Below are positions 5,378-64,000 of a stretch of DNA of 64,000 nucleotides, piece after piece. The DNA lies in NCBI GenBank assembly GCA_021736645.1, contig JAIPFM010000107.1, positions 1 through 64,000 of the forward strand. Direction: 5' to 3'. This DNA is from Phycisphaerae bacterium (GTDB lineage Bacteria; Planctomycetota; Phycisphaerae; Sedimentisphaerales; Anaerobacaceae). The notes beneath the pieces are model-generated. The model did no database searches and had not been told where the DNA came from. It worked only from the letters and a program-made list of their open reading frames with translations. Positions within the stretch are counted from its first letter, which is position 1; each line of letters starts with the position of its first letter. The position numbers and the translations under genes were made by a program.

Positions 5378-5962
5378 ATGTCTCAATCATTAAAACCCAT
5401 AGACAATGCCAAGATCGAAAACGCGATTCGTGACCTCCTGGACGCCATTGGCGAAGATGTGAATCGTGAGGGCCTCCGCGATACGCCCGCCAGAGTGGCC
5501 CGCATGTATTCTGAACTGCTGGGCGGCATGCGGGAGAACCCTGAAATACACTTTAAAAGTGTGTTCACGGAAGAGTATGATGAAATCGTGCTACTCCGAG
5601 ATATTCCTTTCTTCAGCATGTGTGAACACCATATGCTGCCGTTCATAGGGTCTGCCCATGTGGCCTATTTGCCGTCCGGCAAGGTCCTCGGTGTCAGCAA
5701 GATGGCTCGTATCGTGGACTGTTTTGCCAAACGTTTGCAGGTCCAGGAACGCATGACCGGTGAAATTGCTGATCTCATGATGAATCATCTCAAACCCTTG
5801 GGCGTGGCCGTGGTCGTGGAGGCATCTCATAGCTGCATGACCATACGCGGCATCAAAAAGCCCGGGGCCACCATGGTGACTTCGGCCTTACGAGGCCTGT
5901 TTAGAAAAGATTCTCGCAGCCGCAATGAAATTCTGAGCCTGCTGCACCAGGATCGACGTTGA
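5378..5962 (+). CDS. folE: GTP cyclohydrolase I
   Basis: The enzyme converts GTP to 7,8-dihydroneopterin triphosphate, the first step for folate, tetrahydropterin or queuosine precursors. The 194-residue protein has the zinc and active-site motif [10 protein letters not shown], the segment [13 protein letters not shown] and the C-terminal [10 protein letters not shown], which supplies the third zinc ligand and catalytic residues. An AGGG tract lies 5 bases before the ATG. The gene following it encodes a PTPS/QueD-type enzyme that uses exactly this product, so the pair forms a short pterin pathway. Confidence 0.97.
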
Positions 5963-5970
5963 GGCCTTTC

Positions 5971-6768
5971 ATGCACCAGCTATTGCGTAGTGTCCGATTC
6001 TGTATCAATCCGTTCCTGGTAGCCCCCCCTATCGGTCATAATGGTTTTGGAGGCCGCCCGGCAGGCCAGGGGCTGGCACTGTTTCTGGAATTGGGGATTC
6101 GGCTTAGCCACACCGTGGATCCAAACACTGGTTTTGTGATGAATGTCACCGACATTGACGCGGGTGTTCGCCGGGATGCCGTACCGTTATTCGCTGAGTA
6201 CATTACTCAACAGTACAAACAGGCCAAGCACATAAGTCTCAATGATCTTCAGCAGCTCATGACGAGAACCTTTTCAGTGCTAAAAGAAAGCTTCCACCCC
6301 TGTACCCTGAATGAACTCAGTCTGCAGCTTACTCCATACAGGACCATGACCATGAAATCAACCTCACCTGCTACGCTATTCTACTGTGAAAAGTTTGAAT
6401 TTGCAGCCATGCATAAATTGTGGAACGATAACTTCACTGAGCAGCAAAACCTGGATGCCTTTGGAAAATGCGCCAATGCCTCGGGCCATGGACATAATTA
6501 CTGGGTCGATGTCACGATCAAAACCACGAGACCCGACCTGTTTAACTCCATCGCATTTGAGAAAACGACAAACGATCGATTCATTGACCTGGTAGACCAC
6601 AAGAATCTGAATGCGGATGTACCTCACTTTGCGCACCATATTCCCACCATAGAGAATATTGCCGAGTATGCGTGGCATCAACTGTTTTCATACTTTGAAG
6701 ATGGTGAGCTCCACAGTGTCACTGTCTGGGAATCTGACCGCACCAGTTGTACATATTTTGGTCCCTGA
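5971..6768 (+). CDS. Double-domain 6-carboxytetrahydropterin/6-pyruvoyltetrahydropterin synthase family protein
   Basis: The 265-residue product is about twice the usual PTPS/QueD length. The C-terminal half (from about residue 130) is a complete domain: a zinc-ligand histidine in AAMHKLW, the catalytic cysteine and histidine pair in GKCANASGHGHNYW, the DHKNLN pair, and PTIENIAEY. The N-terminal half (RSVRFCINPF...GLALFLELGIRLSHTVDPNTGFVMNVTDID) matches the strand pattern of the same fold but has no HGH or catalytic cysteine, so it looks like a degenerate duplicate. An alternative TTG start at 5959 overlaps the folE stop. With folE upstream, the likely job is making 6-carboxy- or 6-pyruvoyl-tetrahydropterin; which of the two cannot be decided from sequence. 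Confidence 0.88.
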   Translation: MHQLLRSVRFCINPFLVAPPIGHNGFGGRPAGQGLALFLELGIRLSHTVDPNTGFVMNVTDIDAGVRRDAVPLFAEYITQQYKQAKHISLNDLQQLMTRTFSVLKESFHPCTLNELSLQLTPYRTMTMKSTSPATLFYCEKFEFAAMHKLWNDNFTEQQNLDAFGKCANASGHGHNYWVDVTIKTTRPDLFNSIAFEKTTNDRFIDLVDHKNLNADVPHFAHHIPTIENIAEYAWHQLFSYFEDGELHSVTVWESDRTSCTYFGP

Positions 6769-26895: not shown

Positions 26896-27056
26896 AACAT
26901 GAATATGCAAATCACTTACCCGCGATGCAGAACGATAAAACGACTTGTCATGCCAAACGCGTGTGAGGTATCCATTGAGCTCAGCCAGCGAAGCTGAAGC
27001 GACGTCGCTAATCAATCATGAAAAAAAGTTGCTAAAAACCTTTTTCTCCTTGTCAT

Positions 27057-27072
27057 ATCTACTTGAGTAGAT
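27057..27072. promoter_or_regulatory. Candidate BlaI operator upstream of the first BlaI gene
   Basis: ATCTACTTGAGTAGAT is a dyad with 7-base arms (ATCTACT and AGTAGAT). Its core TAC-N4-GTA is shared with the palindrome before the second BlaI gene and resembles the TACAnnTGTA core of staphylococcal bla/mec operators. A related half-site, TTACTTGGATAGAT, follows at 27080. A weak -35 (TTGTCA at 27050) and -10 (TAAAAG at 27073) would bracket it, so bound repressor would block the promoter. Confidence 0.6.
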
Positions 27073-27106
27073 TAAAAGTTACTTGGATAGATTTAAGAGG
27101 ACGCAC

Positions 27107-27517
27107 ATGCCAAAGAAAGATCTGGAACTCTTCGACAGTGAGTGGGCGATACTTCGCGTCGTGTGGAAGCTCGAGCCCTGTACTGCCCCCGCCGTCCAGG
27201 AGGCACTTCAGGATAAGAGAGGGTGGGCCTACACCACGGTCAAGACGATGATGGGCCGTATGGTCAAGAAGGGTCTGCTAAAGACGACAAAGATACGCAA
27301 CCTCTACCTCTACAGCTCGGTGGTCACACAGTCTCAGGCCAGAAGAGGCGAGATCCTGAGAACCGTTACCAGGGCATTTGACGGCACTCTAACGCCCATG
27401 ATGCAGTTTTTAATCGAAAGCGATGAGCTGTCGGAGCAGGAGTACAGTCAATTGGAGTCTCTGATTAAGAATCGTAAACGCAAGAAGTCTGCGCCACAAA
27501 AGAAGCCTCAGAAGTAG
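27107..27517 (+). CDS. BlaI/MecI-family transcriptional repressor
   Basis: The 136-residue winged-helix repressor has the family recognition helix region GWAYTTVKTMMGRMVKKGLL at residues 39-58. ATG 27107 is preceded by AGAGG at 6 bases; an earlier ATG at 27083 has no such site. BlaI proteins dimerise on dyads and are inactivated by proteolytic cleavage. In the known staphylococcal protein the cut is N101-F102; the equivalent position here appears to be Q100-F101 in LTPMMQFLIESD. The downstream gene encodes an M56 peptidase, the usual partner. It aligns without gaps to the second repressor at 60775. The target is probably its own operon. Confidence 0.92.
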   Translation: MPKKDLELFDSEWAILRVVWKLEPCTAPAVQEALQDKRGWAYTTVKTMMGRMVKKGLLKTTKIRNLYLYSSVVTQSQARRGEILRTVTRAFDGTLTPMMQFLIESDELSEQEYSQLESLIKNRKRKKSAPQKKPQK

Positions 27518-27568
27518 CCGTTCTGTGGCAGTGATATTGATCACGATTTGTTTATCAACGGAGAGACC

Positions 27569-30500
27569 ATGATGGATGCGATCCTTGAACAAGTCAATTC
27601 GATGGGGAATGCTTTTCTCGATTTTGCTTTGCCCATGCTGGTTCAGTCGAGCCTGCTTATCATCGCATTGCTGGGCCTGGACATGCTTCTTCGCAAGAGG
27701 ATGAGGGCGGTATGTCGATACTGGATCTGGATGATCGTCCTGGTGAAGTTGATGCTTCCAACCACTCTCTCTTCGCCCACAAGTCCGGCCTATTGGTTTG
27801 ACAGTGACCTGCAAGGTGTGGTGACGCAAGGACCGATTGTCTCAGGGACCTCAGAGTCCACGTCCCCAATGACCGAGCCTCCCACTGAGGTGCCAGCGAT
27901 CCTGGATACGATGCCTGTAGCCCGGCCCGCTGAAGATGTCCGGCCTACCCCCGGCTTGGCTTACCCTGTCCAAGCAGACACCGGTGCCACGGTGCCTCCA
28001 GCCGTGCCGGCCCCGTCTATGGCCTGGCAGGGACTTGCGATGCTGCTTTGGCTGGGTGTGGTGATCACCATGACTCTACTGTTGGTTCAACGAGTCTGTC
28101 TTGTCAAGGGGCTGATCGCTCAGTCAAAAGATGCCCCTCCCGAACTGCATGCCCTTCTTGAGCAGGCGCAAAAGCAAATGAAAGTTTACAGACGTGTGGC
28201 ATTGCGACTCTCTTCGGCTGCGGCCAGTCCATCGGTTTGTGGGCTGTTTCGTCCGACGATCTTAATTCCGCATGGTTTGACCAACCGATTAAGCCCACAG
28301 CATTTCAGATCGATCCTTTTGCATGAGCTTGCTCACATCAAGCGAGGCGATTTGTGGGTGAGTATGTGCCAGACCCTATTGCAGATTGCCTACATCTATA
28401 ACCCGTTTCTCTGGGTGGCAAACGCCGTGATTCGAAGGGTCAGGGAAGCAGCCGTTGATGAGACAGTGCTGGTGGCGATGGGCGAGCAGGCCGAGGAGTA
28501 TCCGAGGATGTTGTTGGATGTCTCCAAGTTGACCTTCAGCCGGCCTGCCTGGAGCTTGCGTCTAATAGGTGTGGTAGAGTCAAAAAGAGCGCTGTCCAGC
28601 CGAATCAGACATATCGTAAGCAGGCCTTTTCCTGAGACAGCCAGGCTGGGGTTTTTCGGTTTGCTGGGTGTCCTTGTGGCGGCAGCCGTGCTATTACCCA
28701 TGGCAAGGGCCCAGAAAGACGAGAGCATAGTGTCACCTGCCACTACATCAACTGCGCTCACATTTGAAGGCCCACTTGAGTTTCACAAACCTCTGCCTGT
28801 CGGAATTGTGGCTGGCACAGAGGAGCATCCGGACATCGTGCGCATAGAGTGGCTCCGTTTTGAAACCATCGCTGGCAACGCTTGGGGTGTCACTGCACAC
28901 GTGGGCTGGCTGCCCGAAACAGAAACCTCCTGGCAACTCAAGGTTGAATTGCTCGACAAATCGGGCCGGGTACTGCAGCACGTCAGAGACGAGCCTACAA
29001 TGTTTACACTCGCACCCGGTCAGGCGGATCAGGTGGGACTATGTTTTGTGGATTTGGATCTGGATTTTATGCAGTATGAAGGACGCAGGCACGCAAAACT
29101 ATTTCGGGTTTATCTTGAACCCTGGCAGGAGGAAGTGAAAAATACGGCCTTGGTCGACCCTGAGATGTGTACGCTCGATATGACAGTGGTTGATCAAACG
29201 AGCGAGACGCCTCTTGCCGATGCAGCCGTTGTAGTCCGTAGTTCGTTCGCAGGGAATCGGCATCCACAGGAGAATGGGCTGTACTCCACAGACTCCCAGG
29301 GACGGTGTCAGATAGAGCTCTCCGGAGACGGGCTTGCATTGGTCCGCGTAGGTGCACAAAAGCAGGGCTTTGCCATAAATCAAAAGTATTGGTCGAACTC
29401 CGGTTCCTGGCCTGTTGGCGGAGTCATGCTGGCGAGACTGCCGCATCGCCATGTTCTGGAATTGATCAGGGCCGGTTCGGTGGGTGGATTCGTTCAGGAC
29501 AAGGAGGGTAAGCCCCTCAGTGAAGTCGAGGTTCGCTTGAATGCTTACGTGGAAGATGCCAGTGGCATGTCCCATGTCAGTCGGAGTGTAAAGACAGATG
29601 CCGACGGTCGATGGCAGGTCGATGGCGTTCCCCTGGAATTGGGACCGGATCGCATGAGCATTGGATTAAGGCACGCTGAGTACGGCGGGGATAATGGACG
29701 CAACAGATATCTCACCGGGCAGGCACTACTCGATGCTCGGGCGCTCAAGCACGTTGAGACGCTGGACAAGGGCCTGGTCGTGACTGGCAAGGTGCTCAAC
29801 GACCGGGGGGAGCCCGTGCCCTCGGCAACCGTCATGCGGGCGTCACGATCCTTTAATCCTCTGCCTGCGCTGACAGATGAATCCGGGGCGTTTCGATGGG
29901 CGTGCATGGCTGATGTGTCTGCTTACGACCCTCCCTGCGCACTCGTTGTCGAAGCCCCTGGTTATGCGCCTGTAGAGCAAGCCATAGACCTCACACAAAC
30001 ACTTGACGGTTTGGAAATCCGACTCACACGCGGCAGAAGCATCACATGTCGTGTGGTTGACACAGAGGGTGAGCCTGTTGTGGGCGCCTGGACTGTGGTC
30101 CATCGCATACCTGAGAATTCGGCCTATTCACTCTGGCAAAAAGGCACGGATGCCAGGGGAGAATGTCACGTGCCAAGCATGCCGGAAAGCGATGTTGATA
30201 TTACCGTGCTGAAATCGGGTTACATCGCGGTAAGAGACCTGGTGGTGGGGGCCTCTGAGGACGAAGTCGTCATTACGATGAGACGTGCCATGCGTGTGTC
30301 CGGGACGGTGACAGATGCCCAGAGTGGTAGCCCCATACCCAGTTTTGAAATAGCAGGTGCGTATACTTCGAAAAATGGGCCCTATACGAGCACCCCGTCT
30401 ATCTTTGTTGAAGGCATGTATGACCTGAGCTTTGACGAGGCGACACCTGAGACACTGCAACTTAAGGCTTTCGCTGTGGGATATGAGCCGGCCACTTCAA

Positions 30501-31192
30501 AGGAGATCAAGATAGATGAAGGCCAACGTATCATCGACTTCAAGCTGGTGAGAAGCTCGACGTTTGACGAGACCACAGCCGGACGCCCTCGCGAAGAGAT
30601 CCAACCCACAGGGCCGCGGAGAATCACAGGGAAGGTTCGTGATGGAGAAGGCAATCCCGTGTCTGATGCCATTGTCTCAATCCGGCCGTGGCTTGCAGAG
30701 AATGCAACGACCGATGCCAAGGGCTCATTCGCACTGCGAACGATGGGGACATCGGCCGTGAGTATGAGAGAAGAGACGACCACGCTTTTTGCCAGGCACA
30801 AAGCACGTAATCTTGCGGCTGCCATAGAACTTGGTGCCAATGCAAACAAGCTTGAAATCGATCTGATTCCGGGCGCGATCCTATGCGGCAGGGTCGCTGA
30901 TGCTGAAGGCAAAGGGATCCCCGGTACTGTAATAATTCTCTATTTCTGGCATTTAGGCAGCGGTTACCCTTCTCGGGAAGAGACGCAGGTCGATGCCCAG
31001 GGCTATTATGAGATCAGGGCGGTTCCCTCAGGCCATAGCTATTCTGTGCATGCAACTGCTGAAGGATACGATAAGAAAAACACCAAAATAAAGATGGCTA
31101 AGGCCGCCGGGGATCGCATAGAATTCGAACCGTTGTTTTTGGTCCAGGTGGATAGTTCGGGTTCCCGTATAAATAACATACCCGTAGAATAA
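27569..31192 (+). CDS. BlaR1-like M56 membrane metallopeptidase with about seven carboxypeptidase-regulatory-like domains
   Basis: The 1207-residue protein has a membrane peptidase half (residues 1-380). Helices lie near 15-40, 45-65 and 155-180, with a last one at about 358-380; the zinc motif HELAH is at 252-256 and a likely third ligand E293 lies in REAAVDE. The other 830 residues are periplasmic: a beta-rich region (380-530), then about seven repeats starting near 533, 636, 737, 824, 910, 1018 and 1104. Each has the carboxypeptidase regulatory-like pattern GxVxDxxGxPVxxAxV (e.g. ITGKVRDGEGNPVSDAIV). There is no penicillin-binding sensor domain as in BlaR1. By analogy it would sense an extracellular ligand and cleave the BlaI repressor encoded 51 bases upstream. 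ATG 27569 follows GGAGAG. Confidence 0.88.
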   Translation: MMDAILEQVNSMGNAFLDFALPMLVQSSLLIIALLGLDMLLRKRMRAVCRYWIWMIVLVKLMLPTTLSSPTSPAYWFDSDLQGVVTQGPIVSGTSESTSPMTEPPTEVPAILDTMPVARPAEDVRPTPGLAYPVQADTGATVPPAVPAPSMAWQGLAMLLWLGVVITMTLLLVQRVCLVKGLIAQSKDAPPELHALLEQAQKQMKVYRRVALRLSSAAASPSVCGLFRPTILIPHGLTNRLSPQHFRSILLHELAHIKRGDLWVSMCQTLLQIAYIYNPFLWVANAVIRRVREAAVDETVLVAMGEQAEEYPRMLLDVSKLTFSRPAWSLRLIGVVESKRALSSRIRHIVSRPFPETARLGFFGLLGVLVAAAVLLPMARAQKDESIVSPATTSTALTFEGPLEFHKPLPVGIVAGTEEHPDIVRIEWLRFETIAGNAWGVTAHVGWLPETETSWQLKVELLDKSGRVLQHVRDEPTMFTLAPGQADQVGLCFVDLDLDFMQYEGRRHAKLFRVYLEPWQEEVKNTALVDPEMCTLDMTVVDQTSETPLADAAVVVRSSFAGNRHPQENGLYSTDSQGRCQIELSGDGLALVRVGAQKQGFAINQKYWSNSGSWPVGGVMLARLPHRHVLELIRAGSVGGFVQDKEGKPLSEVEVRLNAYVEDASGMSHVSRSVKTDADGRWQVDGVPLELGPDRMSIGLRHAEYGGDNGRNRYLTGQALLDARALKHVETLDKGLVVTGKVLNDRGEPVPSATVMRASRSFNPLPALTDESGAFRWACMADVSAYDPPCALVVEAPGYAPVEQAIDLTQTLDGLEIRLTRGRSITCRVVDTEGEPVVGAWTVVHRIPENSAYSLWQKGTDARGECHVPSMPESDVDITVLKSGYIAVRDLVVGASEDEVVITMRRAMRVSGTVTDAQSGSPIPSFEIAGAYTSKNGPYTSTPSIFVEGMYDLSFDEATPETLQLKAFAVGYEPATSKEIKIDEGQRIIDFKLVRSSTFDETTAGRPREEIQPTGPRRITGKVRDGEGNPVSDAIVSIRPWLAENATTDAKGSFALRTMGTSAVSMREETTTLFARHKARNLAAAIELGANANKLEIDLIPGAILCGRVADAEGKGIPGTVIILYFWHLGSGYPSREETQVDAQGYYEIRAVPSGHSYSVHATAEGYDKKNTKIKMAKAAGDRIEFEPLFLVQVDSSGSRINNIPVE

Positions 31193-60746: not shown

Positions 60747-60774
60747 TTGCATTGTTAGAGATAAGGAGATGTGT

Positions 60775-61155
60775 ATGTCACAGAGAACACAGGAACTCAC
60801 GGACGCGGAATGGGCCATCATCCAGATGGTCTGGGAACACGAACCCGTGCCTGCCCCCACAGTCCAGGAACTTTTGGAAGAACAGCGGGGCTGGTCCTAC
60901 AGCACGGTCAAGACGCTGATGGACCGTATGGTTAAAAAAGGGCTGCTTACCACAGAACGGATTCGAAACCTGATGCTTTACACCTCCGCCATCACACGCC
61001 AGGAGGCGCAGTCCAAAGAGATTCTCAAGACACTCAAACGGGCGTTTGAAGGGGCCCTTACACCCATGATGCAGTTTCTGCTGGAGAGTGATCACATCAC
61101 CCACAGCGAGTTGGATGAATTGGAGGCCTTGATCAGGGCAAAGAAATCAAAATAA
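60775..61155 (+). CDS. BlaI/MecI-family transcriptional repressor (second copy)
   Basis: The 126-residue repressor aligns without gaps to the first copy at 27107, with the same winged-helix segment GWSYSTVKTLMDRMVKKGLL and the same LTPMMQF tract. Q100-F101 matches the position of the BlaI cleavage site. AAGGAG lies 6 bases before ATG 60775, while an upstream ATG at 60769 directly abuts the ribosome site and is unlikely. The M56 peptidase gene starts 37 bases after its stop. A BlaI-type palindrome lies in its promoter, implying autorepression. Confidence 0.93.
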   Translation: MSQRTQELTDAEWAIIQMVWEHEPVPAPTVQELLEEQRGWSYSTVKTLMDRMVKKGLLTTERIRNLMLYTSAITRQEAQSKEILKTLKRAFEGALTPMMQFLLESDHITHSELDELEALIRAKKSK

Positions 61156-61191: not shown

Positions 61192-64000
61192 ATGAATACG
61201 CCTATTGTGGTATTGAACGGGGCCGGACAATGGTTCGTGGGAATTTCTGCGGATATGCTGATCCAGGCGAGTGTGTTGATTGGGGTCTTATTTATCCTGG
61301 ACTGGTTCTTTCGGAGGCGCATGCGAGGTGTGATACGCTACTGGATCTGGACGCTGTTGCTCGTAAAGCTGGTGCTGCCGCCGTCACTGATTTCCCCCGT
61401 TGGCCTGGGCCGGTTGATCCCCAAAGTGGGCACCGTCACAGCCACTGTCATACCTGACGGACCGCCGACATTAGACAGCAAAAAAGAGACCCTTTCCTTC
61501 AACCTCAAGTCTACCTCACCCTTGACATACTCAGAGTTCTTAACCAGTGATTCACAATCCTCGGTGCCCCATCCTCTGACCGAACCGTCAATCAACAATC
61601 AGGCATTGAAACTCAATAATCAAGTGCCCTTATCCTGGCAGGGCCTGGCCTTGCTGATATGGGTTGGCGTGGTCTCGGCTATGTGCTTACTCTTGATTCA
61701 ACGTGTCCTGTTTGTCAAGGGCCTGGTATCTCAGGCCATCCGTTGCGACAACGCATTGCAGACTGTACTTGACGCGTGCCGAGAGCGTCTGGGATTGGCT
61801 GCGCCTGTCACTCTCAAACTGACTCCTATCTCAGGCAGCCCGGCGGTCTGCGGTTTGCGCAGGCCTGTCATTCTGATGCCGCGTGACATGTTGGCGAATC
61901 TTGCACCTCAAGAGCTTGAGGCAGTGCTGCTCCATGAGCTGGGTCATGTGATACGGGGTGACCTCTGGATCAATGTCGTTCAGACCTTGCTGCAAATCCT
62001 GTATTTTTACAATCCCCTGGTGTGGCTGGCCAATTGGCAGATCCGTAAGATTCGTGAAATCGCGGTAGACGAGGCCGTGCTGGTGGCGCTAAGAGACAGG
62101 GCGGCCACGTACCCTGAAACCCTGGTGGGTGTCGCACGCATGGCGCTGTCGCGTCCCACGCCGAGCCTGCGCCTGATCGGGGTGGTGGAAAATAAAAGCC
62201 AACTCAATCGGAGGGTAAAACGCATGTTGACTCGACCGCTTCCAAAGATAGCCAGGCTGGGCGCAACGGGCATTGTTATTCTGGCGTTGTTGGCTTTGTT
62301 GCTGCCCATGGCCACCGGGGAGTCTTCCGTACTGACTATGACAAACCGCCAGATTGTAGAGGCGCTCACAGAGTTGGGTGTCGATCCCAACGACTATCAT
62401 ACTGTCAATGTGAAGTATTGGTGGGATGGGCTTGACCTGGATTCCGGTCAGGTGGTCAACATACAGGCCGCGCGGGTACGGGGTGTGGATATAGACCTCA
62501 ACACCGAATTGAGACAGGGCCGACGCGTTTCAGACAAGGTGAATGCCAATCTTGGCTACCCTCATATCGATCCCAATAGCGTCAGACGAATCCTGACACT
62601 GAAGTCCGATCGACTGTTGGAGGCCCTGGTGGAGGCGAGTCAACGCAGGGACGAATTGCAGAACAGCCAGGCGGCGATGAATGGTTTCTCAACCCAAAAA
62701 GGCTCGCAGTGGTTTTTGGTGAAAACGGATGGTATGCAGGTCAATACCACGGTACCTGATCAAAGAACACCTAGCAAATTGGCCATTGTACAATTGATGG
62801 CATTCGGAGATACAGACGTCACACTCCGGTATTGGCTGGGACACTGGGATCCAAGCTCCAGTACAGTGATGGTTCATGAAGACGGTGCCGGGGCCGAGGG
62901 GCGAGCCAGTTTGCACGGCATCGTCATTGATCCCAATGGCCGGCCCGCTGGAAACCATCGGTTTTGGATCAACAAGAACTCAAAGACACTCGCCAGCGTC
63001 ACGACAGGCACGACAGGTCAGTTTACGATCGAGGATGTGCCGTTGGGGCTCCTGCAAGTGGCCTGCCAAGATGCCTATGGCCACGAGGTGGCGTACTCAT
63101 TCCCCTTGGATCGGGCCGGGCCCTGGTACATCAAACTGCTGTACAACAGCGAGCCCAACAAGACCTATACCTTGAAGGTCCTGGCCCTGGGGCGTGAACC
63201 GGGAATTTTCGAGAAGTCCGCTGACCAGCCCTGGTACGACGCGTCCGGCGAGACATCGATACGGGGTCGTGTGCTGGACGCGCAGGGTGCCCCGGTGACT
63301 CATGCGGTCGTGGTCCTCTGCGAATCCCAGGGCGGGATTCCGCTGGTGAAAGAGAGCTATGTCACCATGACAGAGGCGTATATCAGCAACAAGGCACCCA
63401 GGGAGATTGCCTTTGAAGTGACAAATGAGTCAGGGCAGTTTCGATTTGACCATGTCCCGGACGGCACCTATCGATTGATTGCCCAGTCCTGGCAGGGCGT
63501 GACAAAGATCAAGGCGATTCTGGAGACAAATGGACCAGAGATTCAGCTGCATGGACTCGCGGAACACGTCCGGCCCGGCCGCGATGTGGAGATTCGACCG
63601 CTGGGATCGGGCACGCTGGTGCTGGATCAGCACATGCCCAATGACGAAACCCTGCTGGTGGTCAGTACGTCACCGCCTCAGGCCGACCCGGTCCTGGGCT
63701 TTGCCGGGTGGGGCGGTCCATTGATGCGCCACATGATCTGTGGGAATCGCATGCCCGCAGGCAAAACAACGATCCACGGATTGCCTGCGGGCACCGTGTA
63801 TCTGGCCATGTTTGCCGCAGACAGTGCACCGGCCTTTGCCGCAGGCCGGGCCGAGATTCGGGCGGGACAGAACACCGTGCTGCCTGAGATCCAGTTCGTG
63901 GGGTCCTGGTCCAATGCCAGACAGGAGCCTCCTGCAGCATTGCAGGCGGTGTTCAGTGAGCTGCAACAACTCGGGGAGGATCAACTGAAATATGTGGCCC
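61192..64000 (+). CDS. BlaR1-like M56 membrane metallopeptidase, C-terminus beyond window
   Basis: The frame is open to the right edge, giving at least 936 residues. ATG 61192 follows GGAGG at 7 bases. The membrane half has helices near 20-40, 48-65 and 150-175, the zinc motif HELGH at 248-252, a likely third ligand E289 and a last helix at about 356-378. The periplasmic half so far holds at least two carboxypeptidase regulatory-like repeats, near 574 (LHGIVIDPNGRPAG) and 689 (IRGRVLDAQGAPVTHAVV). As in the first copy there is no penicillin-binding sensor. The two proteins are related through the membrane half but differ strongly outside, which suggests different ligands. Confidence 0.88.
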   Translation, partial: MNTPIVVLNGAGQWFVGISADMLIQASVLIGVLFILDWFFRRRMRGVIRYWIWTLLLVKLVLPPSLISPVGLGRLIPKVGTVTATVIPDGPPTLDSKKETLSFNLKSTSPLTYSEFLTSDSQSSVPHPLTEPSINNQALKLNNQVPLSWQGLALLIWVGVVSAMCLLLIQRVLFVKGLVSQAIRCDNALQTVLDACRERLGLAAPVTLKLTPISGSPAVCGLRRPVILMPRDMLANLAPQELEAVLLHELGHVIRGDLWINVVQTLLQILYFYNPLVWLANWQIRKIREIAVDEAVLVALRDRAATYPETLVGVARMALSRPTPSLRLIGVVENKSQLNRRVKRMLTRPLPKIARLGATGIVILALLALLLPMATGESSVLTMTNRQIVEALTELGVDPNDYHTVNVKYWWDGLDLDSGQVVNIQAARVRGVDIDLNTELRQGRRVSDKVNANLGYPHIDPNSVRRILTLKSDRLLEALVEASQRRDELQNSQAAMNGFSTQKGSQWFLVKTDGMQVNTTVPDQRTPSKLAIVQLMAFGDTDVTLRYWLGHWDPSSSTVMVHEDGAGAEGRASLHGIVIDPNGRPAGNHRFWINKNSKTLASVTTGTTGQFTIEDVPLGLLQVACQDAYGHEVAYSFPLDRAGPWYIKLLYNSEPNKTYTLKVLALGREPGIFEKSADQPWYDASGETSIRGRVLDAQGAPVTHAVVVLCESQGGIPLVKESYVTMTEAYISNKAPREIAFEVTNESGQFRFDHVPDGTYRLIAQSWQGVTKIKAILETNGPEIQLHGLAEHVRPGRDVEIRPLGSGTLVLDQHMPNDETLLVVSTSPPQADPVLGFAGWGGPLMRHMICGNRMPAGKTTIHGLPAGTVYLAMFAADSAPAFAAGRAEIRAGQNTVLPEIQFVGSWSNARQEPPAALQAVFSELQQLGEDQLKYVA

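Follow-up and report, generated by a model that had tools for sequence, protein, structure and literature searches.

The locus at positions 27057-31192 of the window (the whole 64,000-nucleotide stretch that was analysed, part of contig 107 of a planctomycete genome) contains a tandem dyad, a BlaI-type repressor and an M56 protease, and probably constitutes a BlaR1-like derepression switch in which the outside sensor has been exchanged. We assign this reading, with its full mechanism, a probability of roughly 60%. In the proposed mechanism, BlaI would bind the tandem dyads, located in the promoter spacer and the start region, and repress its own two-gene operon, as suggested by the conserved operator placement. 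By homology to BlaR1, the M56 protein would cross the membrane so that its zinc site faces the cytoplasm and the beta-sandwich array of 823 residues lies outside, where the array might meet a ligand, at a guess a protein or another envelope component. The signal would travel via the last membrane helix to the protease, which would cleave BlaI at the predicted bond Q100-F101, releasing the operon and possibly also one ECF sigma operon with a like operator type.

In the textbook system, the sensor of BlaR1 is a penicillin-binding domain, and to our knowledge BlaR1 is known almost solely as a drug-resistance sensor. If an M56 protease can carry any grafted sensor, it would represent a general signalling receptor that acts via direct repressor cleavage. 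In that case, the natural swaps would mark where a sensor can be joined, and the question of how an outside domain switches on the M56 protease would become testable, for instance in chimeras that respond to a defined ligand and are joined at the point of natural exchange.

Operator, repressor and protease

A candidate promoter was located on the forward strand at 27050-27078, with the -35 element TTGTCA (27050-27055) separated by a 17-base spacer from a weak -10 element, TAAAAG (27073-27078). The first dyad, ATCTACT-TG-AGTAGAT (27057-27072), has perfect 7-base arms and a conserved position, and a second, imperfect dyad, TTACTTGGATAGA (27079-27091), lies 20 bases downstream of it. The core of the first dyad, CTACTTGAGTAG (27059-27070), is the sole CTACN4GTAG in the window; 0.17 occurrences were expected and 15 of 100 shuffles contained the motif, so that by the window alone the dyad is not significant. 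Its conserved placement indicates more than chance: YTACN4GTAR was found 47-52 bases upstream of blaI in 18 of 20 orthologous loci (25 occurrences in total in their 155 kb), including L147, where the dyad lies at -49 from its own ATG and BlaI is 59% identical (BLAST). Alignment of 21 orthologous and paralogous upstream regions revealed the pattern CTTGCAA-N17-TAnTaT, in which the dyad fills the spacer and a second, half-conserved site comes next. The dyad appears to be a true operator, placed as expected of a polymerase-blocking site.

The residue at position 43 of BlaI, in the recognition helix, was found to be associated with the operator arm, Thr with CTACT..AGTAG and Ser with CTACA..TGTAG (counts 10/2/0/10; p = 1e-4 before kinship correction, a value weakened by kinship among the sequences). 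A one-residue specificity code at this position is possible (L129-L148, L020, L018 and L154), with L134 and L136 as exceptions.

The repressor gene (27107-27517, forward strand; ATG at 27107, stop at 27517) encodes a 136-residue protein that matches PF03965 with an E value of 4.5e-29 and 101.6 bits (Pfam cut-off 22.6), which places it in the BlaI/MecI/CopY family. Alignment with MecI (1sd6) and BlaI (1sd4) runs the length of the protein, the MecI match covering residues 2-121, and its recognition-helix region reads WAYTTVKTMM. The original prediction had placed proteolysis of the repressor at Q100-F101, a position that lies within TPMMQFL. In the alignment, this putative site falls on Asn101-Phe102 of BlaI, the bond cleaved in that protein (PMC9834060), and the predicted and known positions thus coincide. 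QF is kept at the cut position in every readable BlaI sequence of the subfamily.

The repressor might instead be controlled otherwise than by M56 cleavage, for example by direct binding of a ligand or metal, as in CopY, with the M56 protein acting on another substrate. In NCBIfam, the repressor scored best with the CopY family, but under the cut-off (80.6 versus 121.95 bits), and the source genome contains 13 BlaI and 12 M56 genes, some of them unpaired. This explanation appears quite unlikely, however, given the conservation of QF at the cut site and the adjacency of the BlaI and M56 genes in all 20 relatives examined.

Under the preferred reading of control by cleavage, the protease would be the M56 protein of 1207 residues, encoded in a single uninterrupted frame (27569-31192, forward strand; ATG at 27569, stop at 31192). 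Its protease half, or chassis, comprises residues 1-382 (27569-28714), as delimited by PF05569 (E 6.9e-41 over residues 20-348; 140.8 bits versus a cut-off of 31), alignment with BlaR1 (8exs) and hydropathy. The hydropathy profile indicated four hydrophobic transmembrane segments, with a predicted outer loop of ~84 residues, versus 41 in BlaR1. The zinc motif H252ELAH256 (28322-28336) and the gluzincin motif E293AAVD297 (28445-28459) align with H201EXXH and E242XXXD, respectively, the gluzincin signature of BlaR1 (PMC9834060), and the protein can be assigned to peptidase family M56 as a membrane gluzincin with HEXXH and EXXXD. A structure model of the protease half, built from two sequences, was poor (pLDDT 46) and was set aside.

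The pair has in common with BlaR1-BlaI of Staphylococcus aureus (8exp-8ext; PMC9834060) the repressor-protease organization, the four-helix gluzincin protease with HEXXH...EXXXD, a C-terminal sensor predicted to lie outside, and the position of the predicted cut site in the repressor. The sensor of BlaR1 is a class-D-like penicillin-binding domain, whereas that of the window protein is a beta-sandwich array, and, unlike BlaR1-BlaI, the window pair has no recognised beta-lactamase gene alongside. MecR1-MecI follows the same logic, with a repressor that can be aligned over residues 2-121, but the window pair differs in having no penicillin-binding sensor and in scoring far short of the NCBIfam cut-offs for MecI and MecR1. 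The predicted bla/mec logic was borne out in the operator-like dyad, the repressor, a gluzincin protease of apparent BlaR1 topology and the aligned cut site. As far as the sequence can tell, the pair would work like BlaR1-BlaI; as the feature that defines the BlaR1/MecR1 sensor was not detected, the M56 protein is best described as a variant receptor.

The beta-sandwich array and its origin

The sensor half begins with a membrane-proximal Ig-like beta domain (residues ~397-530; 28757-29158, forward strand), which shows strands in the model and is also kept in secreted arrays. It is followed by seven transthyretin (TTR)/CarboxypepD_reg-like repeats (residues ~533-1190; 29165-31138, forward strand), recognised by PF13620, the model and fold comparison, with borders set by motif. 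PF13620 (CarboxypepD_reg) matched six stretches of the protein with a total E value of 6.9e-46 (Pfam), and seven repeats were counted by motif. The AlphaFold2 model of residues 385-1207 (823 residues) was nearly all beta, with a mean pLDDT of 75.8, and the modelled domains matched the TTR domains of carboxypeptidase D, the SusC NTE, the teneurin TTR domain and CnaB (Z ~10-12.6; ~12 for carboxypeptidase D), as expected of tandem PF13620 domains with a TTR-like fold. About seven Ig-like repeats had been predicted; the number stood, and the composition was revised to a single Ig-like domain followed by seven repeats of the transthyretin/carboxypeptidase-D type. As to the polymer, cell-wall glycan or other protein that the original prediction had suggested as the binding partner, the results spoke neither for nor against.

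At E<=1, Pfam matched no transpeptidase or beta-lactamase family in the M56 protein, and NCBIfam blaR1_generic reached 110 bits versus a cut-off of 400, with its best stretch in the protease half. No penicillin-binding structure was among the fold matches listed, an absence that is no proof, and sequence profiles might overlook a very divergent penicillin-binding domain. The C-terminal class-D-like penicillin-binding domain that characterizes BlaR1 and MecR1 was detected neither by Pfam or NCBIfam nor in the nearly all-beta AlphaFold2 model. The original prediction had denied the protein such a domain and proposed that the structure of the repeats be predicted; the model suggests a beta array of TTR-like folds with no detectable penicillin-binding fold.

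Sensing of beta-lactams or cell-wall damage by some region that is not a penicillin-binding domain would find a parallel in the M. tuberculosis BlaR1 homologue, which is without an equivalent sensor domain (PMC9834060). However, no beta-lactamase-like gene was recognised adjoining the pair among the ORFs, which were judged by eye, and the ankyrin and leucine-rich-repeat (LRR) sensors found on orthologous chassis argue for varied signals, making this explanation very improbable. The flanking ORFs, a HAD-type phosphatase upstream and a ferredoxin-like protein downstream (both judged by sequence motif only), look separate from the pair.

The nearest relatives of the array were secreted CarboxypepD_reg array proteins (L155-L160) from Planctomycetota, Sedimentisphaerales among them; they are 39-51% identical, and in four the match covers nearly the full length. 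Unlike the window protein, these have a signal-like N-terminus and no M56 half, and no adjacent BlaI was seen. The taxon labels of the named array-sharing relatives were Sedimentisphaerales, Phycisphaerales or simply Planctomycetota. Most free arrays extend into one more repeat and a thioredoxin-fold end, which the window protein lacks; of the four longest, three finish with the thioredoxin-type motif PWLIL, and the fourth is masked there. Among same-genus genomes, one has a free array of 681 residues and another a partial copy, neither with a close chassis match, and no relative combining the same chassis with the same array was found. In two other genomes, G053 and G020, an M56 protein of a distant clade bears a similar array; its gene lies beside free array genes and is preceded in both by a BlaI-like ORF. 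The M56 tree grouped the window protein with ankyrin and LRR forms (99/95), far from the G053/G020 clade, while the G053/G020 arrays grouped with a free array (91/99), the inner array branches being only partly resolved. Separate fusions of the array to M56 would be the simplest reading, and we infer that the direction was from free to fused array. No TAC-type dyad was present upstream of the three free array genes checked. Rows of neighbouring secreted CarboxypepD_reg-array genes were also observed (L062:1963-19501, L063:381-18999 and L064:3-8243), many of them ending in the thioredoxin-fold motif LPWLILTD; they apparently belong to a large, expanding family.

These free arrays bear on the possibility that the window array is a structural arm or a partner-docking scaffold, for example for secreted thioredoxin-fold array proteins, while a separate protein would sense redox or envelope stress. 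In relatives, the free arrays frequently terminate in an AhpC/TSA or thioredoxin fold, some M56 relatives have such a fold in-chain, and the thioredoxin-fold part is missing from the window protein. A search of the window genome at E<=1e-10, however, returned only the gene itself as an array match, which leaves no obvious free partner, and direct sensing suits the exchange of sensors at least equally; a scaffold role is considered unlikely. An accidental join of an M56 gene to a secreted array gene, by assembly error or pseudogene formation, was also weighed, since the fusion in its exact form is known from one genome and one fragmented assembly (5.88 Mb in 234 contigs, estimated completeness 88%), and the same-genus genomes have the free array only. 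Against such an artefact, which is extremely improbable, are the uninterrupted frame of 1207 codons, the location of the joint directly behind the last membrane helix, the point at which every other member changes, and the M56 fusions of similar arrays in two other genomes.

Exchange of sensors among relatives

In 20 relatives, BlaI is 51-84% and the M56 half 46-63% identical to the window proteins, but the C-termini are not conserved. Close chassis matches were present in 81 genomes. The nearest relative (BlaI 84%) carries ankyrin repeats and the following two carry LRRs. Among the C-termini of the others were CPD repeats combined with a thioredoxin fold, a secretin-like segment, DUF4019 together with HEAT or CPD, Clp_N and DUF3108, besides some without any recognised domain. 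Among 276 pairs of C-termini (24 proteins), 73 showed any similarity and three could be aligned across >70% of the shorter member; several loci stop at contig borders, so that some of these C-termini are partial. Between L141 and L142, 84% of the chassis is shared, against just 29% over 276 residues of the sensor. At the level of sequence, the pair is a conserved chassis on which the sensor has been repeatedly replaced in this bacterial family, a feature that the original prediction did not anticipate.

A wider proposal, held tentatively and at somewhat less than even odds, is that in Sedimentisphaerales and their relatives BlaI-M56 serves as a general transmembrane receptor platform, with repeated grafting of outside sensors (secreted-protein arrays, ankyrin, LRR, beta-helix and others), paralogue-specific insulating operators, and one or more channels that could feed an ECF sigma factor. 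In the openly accessible literature, nothing on point was found for M56/BlaI in planctomycetes, nor for M56 with CarboxypepD_reg or LRR domains.

Regulon and paralogous systems in the genome

It had been predicted that the regulon may extend beyond the two genes, and a genome-wide search for further dyads had been suggested. With up to three mismatches, the tandem operator pattern occurred at two sites in the 5.88 Mb genome, the window operon and C16:34749-34781, and at none in the reversed control. The C16 site precedes a subfamily BlaI gene (56% identical) and then an ECF-type sigma factor; in this locus (L154; G000 C16), the BlaI gene lies at 6347-6733 and the sigma factor gene at 5726-6250, M56 is absent alongside, and the tandem operator is as in the window pair. 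Since the operator type is shared, cross-regulation with the window system is possible. Relatives of the ECF sigma factor gave many matches of 36-45% and no close orthologue, so that it was not possible to demonstrate conservation of the pairing between BlaI and the sigma factor. A small extension of the regulon, by this one further tandem operator with its BlaI-ECF sigma genes, may exist; a wide regulon was not found, as single-dyad genome scans gave counts below those of the reversed control. In Clostridium thermocellum, BlaI regulons were described as small and self-regulating, the BlaI operon being preceded by inverted repeats in pairs (PMC8457756). The motif there (GTCTAT/GACTAT) differs from the window dyad, and the likeness lies in the small regulon and the paired repeats.

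Additional matches to CTACTTCAGTAG were rejected as operators, most being a dispersed repeat and others lying inside genes. This 12-mer occurs at ten G000 places (C30:13915, C37:22107, C74:13598, C76:14485, C77:6729, C105:12158, C111:18596, C126:704, C174:1422 and C219:19850). In the two that were read, it lies within a longer common sequence, GATGCAAGGAAGACAACGAAG..CCTACT..AGTAGGGCGAGGC, which suggests a family of dispersed intergenic repeats.

The window contains a second BlaI/M56 pair, absent from the first reading of the sequence. A second subfamily BlaI gene (60769-61155, forward strand; PF03965) has an upstream dyad of its own, TTTACAAGTGTAAA, and precedes a second M56 gene (61192-64000, forward strand), which continues to ~65305 of contig 107 and encodes 1370 residues in L020. 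The C-terminus of this M56 protein combines CarboxypepD_reg with a right-handed beta-helix (NosD-like), and its protease half is 44% identical to that of the first. The paralogues in the genome carry different dyads, and the parallel systems are therefore probably insulated from each other. A further subfamily M56 gene, L019:10316-12805 (G000 C156), has no BlaI directly upstream; the preceding ORF ends HEAT-like, and the protease half of the L019 protein hardly differs from its L018 counterpart.
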